NCBI RefSeq assembly: GCF_029589435.1
Contig: NZ_JARRAG010000001.1
Span: 1,540,808 to 1,604,807 of the forward strand
Direction of reading: 5' to 3'
Origin: Paludisphaera mucosa
Lineage (GTDB): Bacteria; Planctomycetota; Planctomycetia; Isosphaerales; Isosphaeraceae
DNA: 64,000 nt
In this document: one piece after another, positions 59,199 to 64,000 of the stretch
Numbering within the stretch: position 1 is the stretch's first letter
How the letters are laid out: each line of letters opens with the position of its first letter
Translations under genes and position numbers: made by a program
The notes under the pieces: generated by a model
The model's input: the letters and a program-made list of their open reading frames with translations, nothing else
Told to the model about the DNA's origin: nothing
The model's database searches: none

Positions 59199-60349
59199 AC
59201 TTCGAGTTCGCGACAGCCGGCCGGATCCTTTTCGGATGGGGGGCGTTCGAACAGACGCCCGCCCTGGCGAGGTCACTCGGCCGCACGGCTCTGCTCGTCC
59301 TGGGTCGAGAGGGCCGGCACGGCGAAGCCCTGGCCGGCCTGCTCGCGGGGCGAGGCGTCCGCAGCTTCAGCTTCCACGTCGACGGCGAGCCCAAGGTGCG
59401 GACCGTCGAGACCGCGGTGGGCCTGGCCCGGGCCGAAGGCTGCGACCTGGTCGTCGCCGTCGGCGGCGGCAGCGTCATCGATGCCGGCAAGGCCGCGGCC
59501 GGAATGGCGATGCAGCCCGGGAACGTCCTCGAATACCTGGAGGTCGTCGGCGACGGACATCCCCTGACCGCCCCTGCGTTGCCGTTCATCGCCGTCCCCA
59601 CGACGGCCGGCACCGGGGCCGAGGTGACGCGCAACGCCGTCCTCGACGTCCCTGAGCGCCGTGTGAAAGTGAGTCTCCGGCACCCGAGCCTGCTCCCCCG
59701 CGTCGCGGTCGTCGACCCGGCCCTGACGCTGACCCTTCCGCCCGAGATCACCGCGTTCACCGGGATGGACGCGCTGACGCAGCTCATCGAACCTTTCGTC
59801 GGCCTCGCCGCCAATCCGATGACCGACGGCTTCTGTCGCGAGGGGATCGCCCGTGCGGCGCGGTCGCTGGTCGTCGCCTACCACGACGGCTCGAATCGTG
59901 ATGCGCGTGAAGACATGGCGGCGGCCTCGCTGCTGGGGGGCCTGGCGCTCGCCAACGCCAAGCTCGGGGCCGTTCACGGCCTGGCGGGGGTTCTGGGCGG
60001 AACCTTCGGCCTCCCACACGGGGCCATCTGCGCCCGGCTTTTGCCGTTCGTCATGGACGCGAACATCACGCAACTCGAACGGGGATCAACCGATACGACG
60101 ACGCTGGAGCGTTACCGCGAAGTGGCGCGAATGCTCACCGGCGACTCTGGGGCCGGACCTCGGGACGGAGTCGAATGGGTGCGAAGTCTTTGCGCGGAGC
60201 TAGCCATTCCGCGTCTTGCCCTGGAAGACGCGGCCGAAGCGGATCTCGACTCCGTGATCGCCGGCGCCCAGCGAGCGAGCAGCATGAAGGGGAACCCGGT
60301 CGCCCTGTCGGACGACGACCTACGGGCGATCCTCCGATCCGCCGACTAA
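59195..60349 (+). CDS. Iron-containing alcohol dehydrogenase family protein
   Basis: This is a 384-residue group III dehydrogenase. NAD(P) is bound at GGGSVIDAGKAAA. PTTAGTGAEVTRNAV and GMDALTQLIEPF are conserved, and metal ligands lie in VHGLAGVLGGTFGLPHG. The His usually found in DALTH is Gln here, a feature of one subgroup that I recall. It may reduce an aldehyde or a maleylacetate-type compound produced by its ABM partner; no aromatic degradation genes are near. The gene overlaps the previous one by four bases. Confidence 0.9.
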   Translation: MNFEFATAGRILFGWGAFEQTPALARSLGRTALLVLGREGRHGEALAGLLAGRGVRSFSFHVDGEPKVRTVETAVGLARAEGCDLVVAVGGGSVIDAGKAAAGMAMQPGNVLEYLEVVGDGHPLTAPALPFIAVPTTAGTGAEVTRNAVLDVPERRVKVSLRHPSLLPRVAVVDPALTLTLPPEITAFTGMDALTQLIEPFVGLAANPMTDGFCREGIARAARSLVVAYHDGSNRDAREDMAAASLLGGLALANAKLGAVHGLAGVLGGTFGLPHGAICARLLPFVMDANITQLERGSTDTTTLERYREVARMLTGDSGAGPRDGVEWVRSLCAELAIPRLALEDAAEADLDSVIAGAQRASSMKGNPVALSDDDLRAILRSAD

Positions 60350-60458
60350 CGGATCGGACCGCGCCGGCGGCCGATTCAAGGCTTACGCCCCCTGCATCCG
60401 ATCTAGAGCTTACGTTGCATAAAAGCGCTGGATCCCCAACCCTGCGCGGTGCGCATGG

Positions 60459-62942
60459 ATGCGGAGGTGGGCGTTGGCGAGTGGGAAGCGCAGGATCGGG
60501 GCGGAACTCGCAATGGTCGCCCTCATCGTGGCGAGCCTGGGCGGGACCCTGCACCTCGTGGTCGTCATCCATCGGCGCAGCCTGAGTGCGGCGCGACTGG
60601 CGAAGGCGCTGGAGGTTGCGGCGCGGCCTGTCGTCGAGACGGCCCCCGCGCCGGCTCCAGAGCCGCCGAAAGTCGTCGCGGCGACGCTGAAGGCGGTGGA
60701 AAAACCGAAGCCCCCGCCTCCTCAGGCACCGGCGGAAGATCCGACGCCGAAGGCCCTGGCGCAGCTCAACGAGGCGGCGGCCCACGAGGCCGAGGAGGCC
60801 CGGCGACTGGATCGCGAGGTCGGCAGCCTGGAACAGGCTCGGCTGGCGGCGTCCGCCGAGGCCGAGAAGTGGCGGCGGCGGGAGATGCTGGTCAAGCAGC
60901 AGGTCGCCTTGCTCGACAGGCAGGCCCAGAAGATCGCCCGCGACGTCGACGCCTACGCGGCCCAGCGCGACGTCTTGGCCCGCGAACGCGACGCCCTCAA
61001 GGCGGCGGTCGCCAACGCCCCGGGGGAGGGGAGCTACGCCGTCTTGCCCTATCAGGGGGAAAACGGCACCTGGAAACGGCCGATCGTGATCGAGTGCAAC
61101 GCCGGCTCCGTCACGATCCGCCCCGACGGCCCGACGTTCAGCCTGCTCGACCTCTCGGGTCTCATCAATCCCCGGTCGAGCCCGGTCGTCGTGGCGATCG
61201 CTCGCGAGCTGCTGAAGATCCAGACGTCCGCATCCCCGGACGGATCGCCCGTTACGCCTTACTTCGTCTTCCTCGTCCGGCCCGACGGCATCCGCGCCTA
61301 CTACGAGGCGCGCGCCCGGCTGGAACCCCTGGGGATCGCCTTCGGCTACGAACTGGTCGAGAAGGACCTCAAAATCCACGTCCCCAACTTCGACGACGTG
61401 GACACCTGGGACGGCTCGCCCTCGATCGGCGTCAAGCCGTCCGGGCTGGTCGGCGCTGGTGCCGGACCAACTGGCGGGGGGAACGATAAGCCCGGAGGCT
61501 CTCCGCTTGCGAGTGGCGGGTTGTCATGGCCGGGTAGCGGCACGAGCCCCGGGCAAGGTGGGAACGACCGAGGCGGGGTGCTTGCGGGCGCATTCGACCT
61601 GCGCCGAGGTCAGGGAGCAGGGGATGGCGGCGGAGATGGAGTAGGCGGTGAAGGCGGGTCGCCCGATGAGTTCGTCTGGCCGTCGGGTCGCCCAGGGGCC
61701 GGCCCTGCCGGGTCTCCCGAGCACGGCGGCGGGTCGGCGGGCGGCGGAGGGCGTGGCAGGGCCGCTCTAGGCTCTGCAAGCGGTGGGCGGGGGTCGTTGA
61801 ACCCAGGTCGTCGCCCAGGATCCGGTACGGGATCAGGGGGATCCGCGCCGAATGGCGACGGGGCCGCGTTGGGCTCGGTCCTCGACCGACTGCCGGATTT
61901 CGAGCGATCCGGTGGCGGAGCCGATACGGGTGACGTCATTGGAGCCAAGCCCGGTGCCAACGAGCTAGGCGAGGGGGCCGGCACCGGCAACCTGCTCGGC
62001 GACGCCAGCGGCGGCCGCAGGCCGATCCGATCGACAGATGCGACGGGCGGCTCTCCGATTTCGGGCGGGACCGTCCCGGGACGATCCTGGAAGTCTGACG
62101 GCACCGGAAGGAGGTCGACAGGCGGGGCGGGCTCGCTCCCGACGGATCTCCAGCCCGCGCCACTGGCTGCGGCCCCTGCGACAGGGGCGGGAGGGGCCGG
62201 GGGCCTGATGTGGGGCGGCAGTGGCGGCGACGCTCCAACCGGTCCGCGAACGCCTCAGGAGGCCTCCGTGTCGGGCGTGAACGACGCATCGGCCGCGGGT
62301 GGCGCGGAGACGAGGGCGACCGGTGACGGCCCGGCCGGGAAACCGACGGGAGCGAAGGGGATAGTGCCGTCGTCACCCGCAGCGATCGCCGCGGCGAAGG
62401 CCGCCGCGAGATTGGGGATCGGCTCGTCTTCGTCATCTTCGGCCTCCACGACGAACGGGGCGGCTTCGCCAGGCCTGATGCTGGGGGCGGACCCGGACGC
62501 GGGGAGCCATGGCGGCGGTTCGGGGTCGGGCGGCGCGGCCCCGAAGTCGCCCTCGGACAAGGTGGAGATGGAGCCGCTGATCAAGGACCCGGACAAGAAA
62601 CGTCCGACGGCGATCGAGGTCCCGTTCGAGATCGTCCTGGCCTGCGGCGCCGACGGGGTGACGATTCAGCCGGGGGGTTACCGGATCACCAGCCAGGCGC
62701 TTAAAGACCGCAAGGGCGAGGACCTGCTGGTCCGCAACCTGGAGGCCGTCGCCTTGAAGCGAGCCGAGGTCGATCCCCTCATCCGGCCCAGGCCGCGGGT
62801 CAAGTTCCTGGTGGAGGACGACGGCGCGCCGAACTTCTGGGAGGCGCGTCGGCAGGTCCTGTTCTCGGGCCTCAACTGGCCGATGACGCTCCAGGTCGCG
62901 GGGGTCCAGAATCCCCGGCCCCTGGAACGGGGGACATGGTGA
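60459..62942 (+). CDS. Membrane-anchored Gly-rich protein with two copies of an unrecognised domain
   Basis: I do not recognise this 827-residue protein. A single membrane helix (about 14-38) is followed by a Pro/Ala stretch and a coiled coil (about 95-185). Domain copy 1 (207-310) holds RPIVIECNAGSVTIRPDG and FVFLVRPDGIRAYYEARARL. A linker of nearly 400 residues is rich in Gly, Ser, Pro and Asp. Domain copy 2 (about 713-827) holds FEIVLACGADGVTIQPGG and VKFLVEDDGAPNFWEARRQ. The copies share the pattern 'hydrophobic strand, Ala-Gly, V-T-I, P-x-G' and 'F-L-V, D-G, aromatic-E-A-R'. The domain should be outside the cytoplasm. Its stop codon overlaps the next gene's start. Confidence 0.8.
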   Translation: MRRWALASGKRRIGAELAMVALIVASLGGTLHLVVVIHRRSLSAARLAKALEVAARPVVETAPAPAPEPPKVVAATLKAVEKPKPPPPQAPAEDPTPKALAQLNEAAAHEAEEARRLDREVGSLEQARLAASAEAEKWRRREMLVKQQVALLDRQAQKIARDVDAYAAQRDVLARERDALKAAVANAPGEGSYAVLPYQGENGTWKRPIVIECNAGSVTIRPDGPTFSLLDLSGLINPRSSPVVVAIARELLKIQTSASPDGSPVTPYFVFLVRPDGIRAYYEARARLEPLGIAFGYELVEKDLKIHVPNFDDVDTWDGSPSIGVKPSGLVGAGAGPTGGGNDKPGGSPLASGGLSWPGSGTSPGQGGNDRGGVLAGAFDLRRGQGAGDGGGDGVGGEGGSPDEFVWPSGRPGAGPAGSPEHGGGSAGGGGRGRAALGSASGGRGSLNPGRRPGSGTGSGGSAPNGDGAALGSVLDRLPDFERSGGGADTGDVIGAKPGANELGEGAGTGNLLGDASGGRRPIRSTDATGGSPISGGTVPGRSWKSDGTGRRSTGGAGSLPTDLQPAPLAAAPATGAGGAGGLMWGGSGGDAPTGPRTPQEASVSGVNDASAAGGAETRATGDGPAGKPTGAKGIVPSSPAAIAAAKAAARLGIGSSSSSSASTTNGAASPGLMLGADPDAGSHGGGSGSGGAAPKSPSDKVEMEPLIKDPDKKRPTAIEVPFEIVLACGADGVTIQPGGYRITSQALKDRKGEDLLVRNLEAVALKRAEVDPLIRPRPRVKFLVEDDGAPNFWEARRQVLFSGLNWPMTLQVAGVQNPRPLERGTW
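61430..62560 (+). repeat. Gly/Ser-rich low-complexity linker coding region
   Basis: Codons for Gly, Ser, Ala, Pro and Asp dominate about 375 codons, in non-identical short runs such as GSGGSAPNGDG. There is no exact tandem repeat. It separates the two domain copies and is probably a flexible, surface-exposed spacer. Confidence 0.65.
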
Positions 62943-64000
62943 TGACGTCGAAATTTCGACAGGCGCTGCCGATCCCCAGCGTGCTCGCCGGGATCCTCCT
63001 TCTGATCTTCCTCGTCGATCGGTCGCGGGTCGCCAGGCCGGTCTCGGTCACGCCGACGCCGATCCCGGCGGCCGCCCCGCAGCCGGCTCCGCTGGCCCCC
63101 GCGGCGACGGAAGTTGCGGAAGCCGCGGCTGAGCCGGCACCCGAGCCGGCCGTCGAGTCGCCGTCCCCGCCGCCGGTGCTGGATCGCGCGGCGGTCGCGA
63201 AGGCCGAGGCCGACCTCGATTCCGCCAGCCGCGACCGGGCCCGCGCCGAGGCTCGCGCGGCCGAGGCGAAGCGGGCCCTGGCGGCGTCGGCCAACCAGGC
63301 GGCGCTGGAGGCGTCCAAGGCGCGCAAGCTGGCCTTCCGGGTCCGCGACCCCTCGGCGCAGATCGCCCGCGTGTCGGCGAAGGGCGGGTTCCTCAAGGCC
63401 GATCGCGACAAGCTGGCGAGCGAGGTCGCCGCCCTCCGCAGCCTGCCGCTGCCCAAGGCGACTTCGATCCTGTCCAAGAACCCGGTCGCCCGGCCCGCGA
63501 AGGCCGACGAGTTCCACTTCGAGCTGCGTCACGATCGGATCAGCTTCATCGACCTGGACCGGCTCCTGGAGCTGGCCAAGTCCGATGCACAGGTCAAGCT
63601 CCGCATGGCCGACCGGACGGGCGTGCTCTCGTCCCAGGTCGGGCCGGTCGGCTGGTTCTCGCTCAGCTACGTCCTGGGCCGGGCTCAGTCGAGCATCGAG
63701 GAGCTGTTGGAGCGACACAGCATCCGCTTCGACCTGCGAGGCTGGGAGGTCGTGCCGACCGTTGAATCGCGCGGCGAGACCTACGACGCGACCCGCAACC
63801 CGATCTCCGAATACGCCCGCGCCATCAACCGCCTCAGTCCCGGGCGGGTGGTGGTGACGATGTGGGTCTATCCCGACAGCTTCGGGCTCTTCCGCAGGCT
63901 CCGCGACGAGTTGAACGACCGCGGCTACAGCGTCGCGGCGCGACCGTTGCCCGAGGGGATGACGATCCGCGGCAGCCCGCTCGGCTCGCTCTCGGCGAGC
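62942..64000 (+). CDS. Paralogous membrane-anchored coiled-coil protein, C-terminus outside window
   Basis: The frame opens at ATG 62942, sharing one base with the preceding stop (TGATG), and is still open at the right edge (353 codons visible). It begins with a membrane helix (LPIPSVLAGILLLIFLVDRS), then a Pro/Ala-rich stretch and a coiled coil (SRDRARAEARAAEAKRALAA). A globular part resembles the domain of the upstream gene: FHFELRHDRISFIDLDRLL matches its first half, and VVVTMWVYPDSFGLFRRLRD with an LNDRGYSV helix-strand matches its second. The two genes thus look like tandem relatives that act together at the membrane. The function is unknown. Confidence 0.75.
   Translation, partial: MTSKFRQALPIPSVLAGILLLIFLVDRSRVARPVSVTPTPIPAAAPQPAPLAPAATEVAEAAAEPAPEPAVESPSPPPVLDRAAVAKAEADLDSASRDRARAEARAAEAKRALAASANQAALEASKARKLAFRVRDPSAQIARVSAKGGFLKADRDKLASEVAALRSLPLPKATSILSKNPVARPAKADEFHFELRHDRISFIDLDRLLELAKSDAQVKLRMADRTGVLSSQVGPVGWFSLSYVLGRAQSSIEELLERHSIRFDLRGWEVVPTVESRGETYDATRNPISEYARAINRLSPGRVVVTMWVYPDSFGLFRRLRDELNDRGYSVAARPLPEGMTIRGSPLGSLSAS

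Follow-up and report, generated by a model that had tools for sequence, protein, structure and literature searches.

Two overlapping genes, A and B, lie at the right edge of a 64-kb stretch of the Paludisphaera mucosa genome, and they raise the question of what kind of envelope machine, if any, they belong to. An initial annotation of this stretch (the window, meaning all 64,000 nucleotides; G000:C1:1540808-1604807, within an 8.2-Mb genome), made from its letters alone, described them as tandem membrane proteins built from copies of one unrecognized domain and suggested a scaffold or export assembly. The 827-residue product it read for A is confirmed as an open reading frame (ORF), with a second ORF starting inside its end. 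Our analysis indicates that A and B look like divergent axle proteins of the ExbD/TolR/MotB kind. On balance we think it probable that the pair represents the axle half of an ExbBD/TolQR-like motor without its ring, now acting as an unpowered tether in the envelope.

The neighborhoods of the two genes carry the first part of the evidence. Relatives of B are present in 50 of 59 genomes, comprising 35 of 37 from the Isosphaeraceae (B was not found in G032 and G033) and 15 of 22 from other families of the class, so that B is conserved across the family of the window genome. A and B were adjacent and co-oriented in all 21 neighborhoods inspected. In each of the 12 neighborhoods from other families, a further gene (c2) lay directly upstream on the same strand, against none of the 9 from the Isosphaeraceae. 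The c2 product matches the MotA_ExbB family (PF01618; E values of 2.7e-12 and 5.3e-12 in the two proteins scanned), and its sole PDB match at an E value of 0.01 was 8vvi, annotated as a MotA/TolQ/ExbB channel protein (E value of 2.8e-6). The initial annotation had advised looking downstream for ExbB/TolQ-like genes; such a partner does exist, but upstream of A and only outside the Isosphaeraceae.

A second sample of 80 named loci, which overlaps the first in genomes so that the counts are not additive, placed c2 directly upstream in 47 of 48 scorable loci from other families versus 0 of 14 scorable Isosphaeraceae loci; another 18 (4 from the family and 14 from elsewhere, including L118) could not be scored because the contig ended or A was cut. 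At the level of whole genomes, a c2 profile scored 238 to 596 bits in all 15 B-bearing genomes of other families, and its best match in 45 Isosphaeraceae genomes reached 105 bits. Among 244 genomes of the phylum, 38 had B at 245 bits or more; all 36 of these from outside the family, a sample that overlaps the 15 above, had c2 at no less than 218 bits, and the two Isosphaeraceae members (G000 and G018) lacked it. One genome, G253, had c2 together with a B match of only 61 bits. Family labels for L094-L111 were set from organism names, similarity, and ring-gene absence before a tree was made, and the tree then joined them with f1, the group identified as Isosphaeraceae through shared contigs (e.g., L094 is G003, Paludisphaera soli, and L100 is G031, Singulisphaera acidiphila). 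Two organism labels among the named loci look wrong: L173 ("Candidatus Kuenenia," with A and B sized as in L169) and L156 ("Singulisphaera sp. GP187," a metagenome-assembled genome with a ring gene and a B unlike that of the Isosphaeraceae).

The transmembrane (TM) helices of the two proteins differ along the same family boundary. For these counts, 123 B sequences (74 from alignment A3, 20 from the neighborhoods, and 29 from genome loci) were reduced to 104 distinct ones, and alignments A3 and A4 omit 7 of the 80 B loci and 10 of the 66 A proteins, which were truncated, extended, or near-duplicates. Outside the Isosphaeraceae, B starts with a motif like GSDSFLDIVANIVGILIIL, and all 67 distinct sequences have the second Asp of DSFLD. 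Among Isosphaeraceae proteins, Asp occurs in 0 of the 35 sequences that have a residue at this column (two more are gapped), the window B among those without it, and the position is occupied by Arg (17), Gly (8), Lys (5), Ser (2), or Gln, Trp, and Ala (1 each). Remnants of the motif keep its flanks in some of these proteins (ESYLGILGNLVGLL in L100, ESYRGIMVNLVGLL in L101, and ESYLSVLANLGSVL in L016). Of the 56 other-family A proteins with the motif, 52 have Ala at the matching position, two have Asp, and two have Thr; the A proteins of L164 (FLDALICTMG) and likewise of L172 carry Asp. Apart from these 56, one other-family A has a TM helix without the motif and three have no visible TM helix, as is the case for one Isosphaeraceae A, and in the Isosphaeraceae the TM motif of A is lost. 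The A and B helices resemble each other (hhalign probability of 59.5%, with FLA set on FLD and 0 of 40 shuffles as good).

Neither gene looks as if it were decaying. Nei-Gojobori ratios of nonsynonymous to synonymous substitution (dN/dS) were 0.27 (window and P. soli) and 0.35 (window and L095) for B, 0.39 (window and L095) and 0.41 (L105 and L106) for A, and 0.15 for A and 0.12 for B between two Singulisphaera, values that point to purifying selection. The closest named relative of the window B is that of P. soli, at 90% over 173 columns. In a B tree made with a quick method, the Isosphaeraceae loci form one side of a starred branch (97 by the Shimodaira-Hasegawa-like approximate likelihood ratio test). 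Because this tree is unrooted, loss rather than gain rests on parsimony, given the ring gene and Asp in the other B-bearing families, and on the motif remnants.

Gene A does hold two copies of one domain, as had been proposed. Profiles of residues 192 to 312 and 705 to 827 aligned over 89 columns with an hhalign probability of 98.3% (E value of 1.7e-14), and when only rows from outside the Isosphaeraceae were used, the probability was 97.5% (E value of 5.8e-12). None of 40 column shuffles matched the real score; the best of them reached 7.4% with all rows and 2.8% with non-family rows, and the reversed profile reached 1.3% and 0.4%, respectively. AlphaFold predicts the same order of elements, strand-strand-strand-helix-strand-helix-strand, at residues 205 to 299 (ten-residue means of the predicted local distance difference test [pLDDT] of 75 to 97) and 719 to 813 (inner blocks at 86 to 96). 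The mean pLDDT of the A model is low overall (63.1) because about 390 linker residues are disordered, with the domains themselves confident, and that of the B model is 82.1. The N-terminal helix, the long helix, and the long disordered linker of the A model fit the envelope-anchored architecture read earlier.

The third copy that had been proposed for B fared less well. The B model resembles the A domains at its beginning and end, with extra strands in between, and the C-terminal domain of A matches B with a probability of 31.9% (E value of 4.9e-4), falling to 11.3% (E value of 0.0027) once Isosphaeraceae rows are removed; none of 40 shuffles did as well in either case. The N-terminal domain of A matched B no better than chance would allow, as 2 and 3 of 40 shuffles did equally well, and this signal was dropped. 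A third copy in B is weakly indicated. The A and B profiles also match each other across the TM helix and the coiled coil, in 22 A and 21 B ORFs of the 80 loci as counted by eye, but we discounted the shared coiled coil as a sign of homology because many unrelated coiled coils give similar scores.

Pfam and NCBIfam scans assigned neither A nor B to a family at cut-off, giving sub-threshold matches that were mostly to coiled coils, and the best 60 of 440 (B) and of 465 (A) matches in PDB profile searches were of the same sub-threshold, mostly coiled-coil nature. Foldseek returned no match at an E value of ≤0.001 for either model; with the A model it aligned 8vgd at a target TM-score of 0.73 (E value of 0.18). 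The nearest solved folds of the predicted C-terminal domain of A, although unrelated folds tie with them, are the periplasmic domains of ExbD and TolR. The top VIA row for the A model was 8p9r, the ExbD periplasmic domain of Escherichia coli (Z score of 7.6, root mean square deviation of 2.7, 72 of 74 residues), and ExbD/TolR structures made up five of the top eight rows (8p9r, 8vgd, the TolR structure 5by4, 8vgc, and 8pek; Z scores of 6.9 to 7.6), falling on the C-terminal copy. The earlier statement that no named domain fits holds for sequence families but is not supported as regards folds.

By analogy with 5:2 motors, the ring and the A-B pair of several other families of the Planctomycetia would form a proton-driven motor, the axle of which would consist of unlike subunits, B bearing the proton-binding Asp and A usually Ala. 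This motor would act on periplasmic targets by way of its ExbD-like domains, and A may extend further by means of its linker. In the Isosphaeraceae, the ring gene is missing from the locus and the Asp of B has been lost, with A and B retained under purifying selection, and the pair there is probably unpowered or re-wired. As an unpowered tether anchored in the inner membrane, it would keep the same geometry, with the coiled coils joining A to B and the Gly/Ser linker carrying the second ExbD-like domain of A deep into the periplasm. Candidate targets of such a tether are peptidoglycan, a protein of the outer membrane, and the periplasmic product of the vWA gene that converges on B. Within this account, the repeat, the co-conservation, the missing ring gene, the lost Asp, and the sequence constraint are observed, and homology to ExbD, the pairing of A with B, stoichiometry, topology, and the bound target are inferred.

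Several observations weigh against this reading, some touching the likeness to ExbD and others the ring and the charged residues. PF02472 (ExbD/TolR) gave no significant profile match to the window A and B or to the relatives scanned, and hhalign of A and B to a profile of 48 ExbD sequences, which superseded an initial one of 5, yielded probabilities of only 0.3 to 0.8%. In the Pfam scan, the TM helix and coil of one relative's A had a sub-threshold match to UPF0242 (E value of 2.4e-5). Pantothenate kinase chains tie with ExbD for A at Z scores of 7.4 to 7.6, a Z score of 7.6 being middling, and since unrelated folds tie with it, the fold alone is no proof of homology. Moreover, 5by4 and 8pek were aligned over pieces of both copies, the N-terminal copy of A was barely probed by the fold comparison, and the B model gave no ExbD row and nothing convincing in structure comparisons, though this is no proof of a different fold. 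Three profile comparisons with ExbD were dropped as chance, those of the B TM helix with the ExbD TM helix (3 of 40 shuffles as good, though the alignment sets Asp on Asp) and of B and the C-terminal domain of A (1 of 40 each). A fourth, of the N-terminal domain of A, went unused (0 of 40 shuffles as good, yet a probability of only 0.8%).

These results leave room for an account in which A and B were never motor parts and form a general envelope scaffold behind a ring gene, their ExbD likeness reflecting a common actin-like or RNase-H-like arrangement of strands and helices. It would explain the lack of a sequence relation to ExbD, the unmatched fold of B, and Z scores that unrelated kinases equal and ribosomal proteins approach. 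The 47-of-48 adjacency to c2, the strict co-occurrence, and the Asp in the TM helix of every non-family B are, however, what would be expected of a motor axle, and the TM helices of A and B are alike, so we regard this account as rather unlikely.

The points that concern the ring and the charged residues open a different alternative. In L104-L106, B has a Glu one turn beyond the Asp site that could carry protons. The same could be true of A: all 20 Isosphaeraceae A proteins in which a TM helix is visible have a Glu close to its beginning (scored by eye; 60486-60560 in the window), which is not part of the motif of other families. L164 (4884-8771), the sole scorable exception outside the family, has a B with Asp and no nearby ring gene; in L118 (585-3086), a short contig, a ring gene lies behind B on the other strand. 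In addition, the ring may have moved rather than vanished. The window genome has six PF01618 genes over cut-off and seven PF02472 genes, A and B not among the latter, six of which fall by position into three ExbB-ExbD-ExbD sets. A ring gene outside the window, m2, was found in 29 of 31 Isosphaeraceae loci scanned and covers most of the ring profile, tail included, in many of them. In the tests of ring-tree topology, a clade of c2 and m2 was not rejected (P value of the approximately unbiased test [p-AU], 0.337), a clade of m2 with other ring types having a p-AU of 0.677.

The ring may accordingly be pictured as having moved and diverged into m2, with A, through its Glu, and B turning in the m2 ring from a split locus. 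The distribution of m2 suits this picture, since it is present where the old ring gene is missing and scores no more than 65 bits in 22 genomes of other families. Against it, m2 has a partner of its own in the adjoining gene, p2. The p2 helix, EDSFVAVVVTKLTGALLFIL, does not vary across all 23 loci and has Ala in place of the Asp as well as a Lys, and p2 had no match in those 22 genomes; both m2 and p2 match strongly in 4 of 4 Isosphaeraceae genomes. The pore-helix motif of m2, GTVEGI, contains a Glu that is constant in 29 of 29 loci, at a position that is always hydrophobic, in rows where the motif could be located, in c2, in zinc-ribbon-type and short rings, and in ExbB; m2 and p2 are possibly a charge-swapped ring and axle pair, to judge from these residues. 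A careful ring tree including 16 of the 29 m2 rows placed m2 with other ring types and apart from c2 on a starred branch (96/97, with a long stem and a bootstrap that had not settled), and where genomes of other families have both kinds of ring, the m2 score is mostly better against the other type than against c2. With c2 itself missing from all 9 neighborhoods and all 14 scorable loci of the family, we hold a re-wired motor to be unlikely, though not negligible. Loss of the ring is moderately preferred to its having moved and been rebuilt because the Asp is absent from A and B and because m2 comes with a partner of its own and mostly gives better scores on rings other than c2.

Other ring genes showed arrangements of their own. 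Within the phylum, L209-L214, L217, and L218 contain three-gene sets of a ring protein with a zinc-ribbon-like start (by eye), a short A-like protein (TM segment SLFPFLSILAC and variants), and a B-like protein with a TM segment like DSLLDTMTNVVGIL in which Asp is present, no B-like gene being detected in L217. At L221:4167-6130 (G006), a ring gene is followed by a protein that, judged by eye, links an axle-like TM segment (FMDVIFCALGGVL) to a coiled coil and to a vWA-like stretch. L216:4101-5393 and L050:11234-12715 are relatives of the ring genes where the usual GFLGTV pore motif was not found.

The ring gene of the other families also invites comparison with antiphage systems, in which A and B would be a Zorya-kind defence system (ZorA ring and ZorB axle) reduced to its axle. 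Matches of c2 to the ZorA2 profile exist but are weak (best E value of 2.1e-10), and 8vvi is its sole solved relative at an E value of 0.01. The window A and B, however, matched no PADLOC defence model at an E value of 0.1, no search having been made for Zorya effector genes, and A and B are near-universal and single-copy in families, unlike patchy defence genes, which makes this origin hard to credit.

The scaffold or export assembly with downstream partners suggested at the outset draws on the anchoring helix, coiled coil, and long linker, but what lies past the right edge refutes its downstream partners. The next gene (L003:4828-5634, 268 amino acids) runs toward B on the opposite strand, and its product is a vWA-domain protein that starts like a signal peptide (by eye); a same-genus relative of this protein matched VWA_3 (E value of 1.2e-6). 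No secretion gene was recognized by eye in about 14 kb downstream, where the family scan covered only a relative of the vWA gene. An export assembly is accordingly very unlikely, with no evidence for one found, whereas a scaffold stays the best functional guess for the Isosphaeraceae pair. In 8 of 9 Isosphaeraceae neighborhoods, the opposite strand carries a vWA gene downstream of the pair (directly next in 6 and 4.5 to 5.7 kb off in 2), and one was found in 7 of 18 named Isosphaeraceae loci, several of whose contigs end early and some of whose genomes are the same. The window A and B themselves gave no vWA match at E values up to 10, and no TonB or TolA match turned up in the general family scan of the two.

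The features of the locus are collected in Table 1. The junction of A and B reads GGGGGACATGGTGATGACG. The coupling by a one-base overlap that the initial annotation described holds if B starts at ATG 62942, and the overlap is seven bases if it starts at ATG 62936, as called by the ORF tool; the former, behind GGGGGAC, is more likely. The full B was read on extended DNA (L003:3744-4814). Upstream, the preceding ORF ends at 60349 and resembles an iron-type dehydrogenase (judged by eye); a functional tie to it was set aside; it is found at 3 of the 21 loci, each from the same genus as the window.

Table 1. Features of the A-B locus (window coordinates) and of the m2-p2 locus elsewhere in the genome
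Feature	Location	Strand	Basis
Site of MotA/TolQ/ExbB ring gene in other families; here intergenic	60350..60458	+	ORF map, neighborhoods
Gene A, 827 aa: TM helix, coiled coil, ExbD-like domain 1, Gly/Ser linker, ExbD-like domain 2	60459..62942	+	ORF, AlphaFold
A residues 10-54: N-terminal helix with TM segment	60486..60620	+	AlphaFold; TM segments
A residues 95-186: long helix, probably coiled coil	60741..61016	+	AlphaFold
A residues 205-299: domain copy 1	61071..61355	+	hhalign, AlphaFold, shuffles
A residues 323-709: Gly/Ser-rich disordered linker	61425..62585	+	pLDDT almost throughout <50
A residues 719-813: domain copy 2; ExbD (8p9r) Z 7.6, 72/74 residues	62613..62897	+	AlphaFold, structure comparison
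Gene B, 356 aa: TM helix, coiled coil, diverged domain with inserted strands	62936 (or ATG 62942)..64000; end 6 bases beyond window at 64006	+	ORF, AlphaFold
B residues 13-32: TM helix, without Asp of non-Isosphaeraceae relatives	62972..63031	+	AlphaFold, alignment
B residues 84-169: long helices, probably coiled coil	63185..63442	+	AlphaFold
B residues 191-337: periplasmic domain; T-x-W-V-Y-x-D-x-F and R-P invariant in 74 aligned rows	63506..63946	+	alignment, AlphaFold
m2 ring gene	G000:C2:984530-986056 (outside window)		
m2 and p2	G000:C2:984530-986896 (L215:4531-6897; outside window)		

Outside the Isosphaeraceae, the system resembles ExbB-ExbD of the Ton system and TolQ-TolR of Tol-Pal in having a PF01618 ring gene beside single-TM proteins, one with an Asp in the TM helix, and in the predicted ExbD/TolR-like periplasmic fold of A. 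It differs from them in its two unlike axle genes, long coiled coils, and lack of a PF02472 match, in the two ExbD-like domains of A with a linker of about 390 residues in the window genome, and, in the Isosphaeraceae, in the absence of the ring gene from the locus and of the Asp. One ring gene with two axle genes is also the layout of AglR-AglQ-AglS, the gliding motor of Myxococcus xanthus, as described in a review (PMC9389320). The review treats the Asp of the MotB helix as the proton site and reports that TolR, AglQ, and AglS are predicted to have one; unlike AglQ and AglS, both predicted to have a conserved Asp, the axle proteins here divide into an A with Ala in 52 of 56 and a B with Asp. 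Among bacteria of the Planctomycetes-Verrucomicrobia-Chlamydiae (PVC) group, tolQ-like genes with heterologous tolR-like pairs have been described, with vWA proteins bearing a transpore helix as proposed force transducers (PMC12204202). Planctomycetes are among the phyla named there, and the combination of a tolQ-like gene with a heterologous tolR-like pair is shared. Unlike those systems, the window A and B have no vWA match, the vWA gene next to them being separate and convergent, with a signal-peptide-like start, and section 8 of that paper describes no members without a ring. In search listings and the papers named here, we recognized no description of the A-B pair or of ring-less axle genes, and the main text of a paper on essential genes of Planctopirus mentions no ExbB, MotA, TolQ, Tol-Pal, proton channel, or biopolymer (PMC10632474).

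A wider picture, in which the Planctomycetia possess a motor family with an asymmetric axle that was dismantled in the Isosphaeraceae, which have in addition a charge-swapped motor of m2 and p2, is offered tentatively, and we would sooner doubt than assert it in full. The findings point to an envelope system of the Planctomycetota for which neither A nor B has a Pfam or NCBIfam family over cut-off. They also bear on a mechanistic question that natural variants can test, namely by what means the proton-binding Asp of an axle powers 5:2 motors and whether it is required in both helices. The genes described here would be such variants: an axle pair in which one gene is usually without Asp, and a whole bacterial family that keeps the axle without the ring gene and without the Asp.

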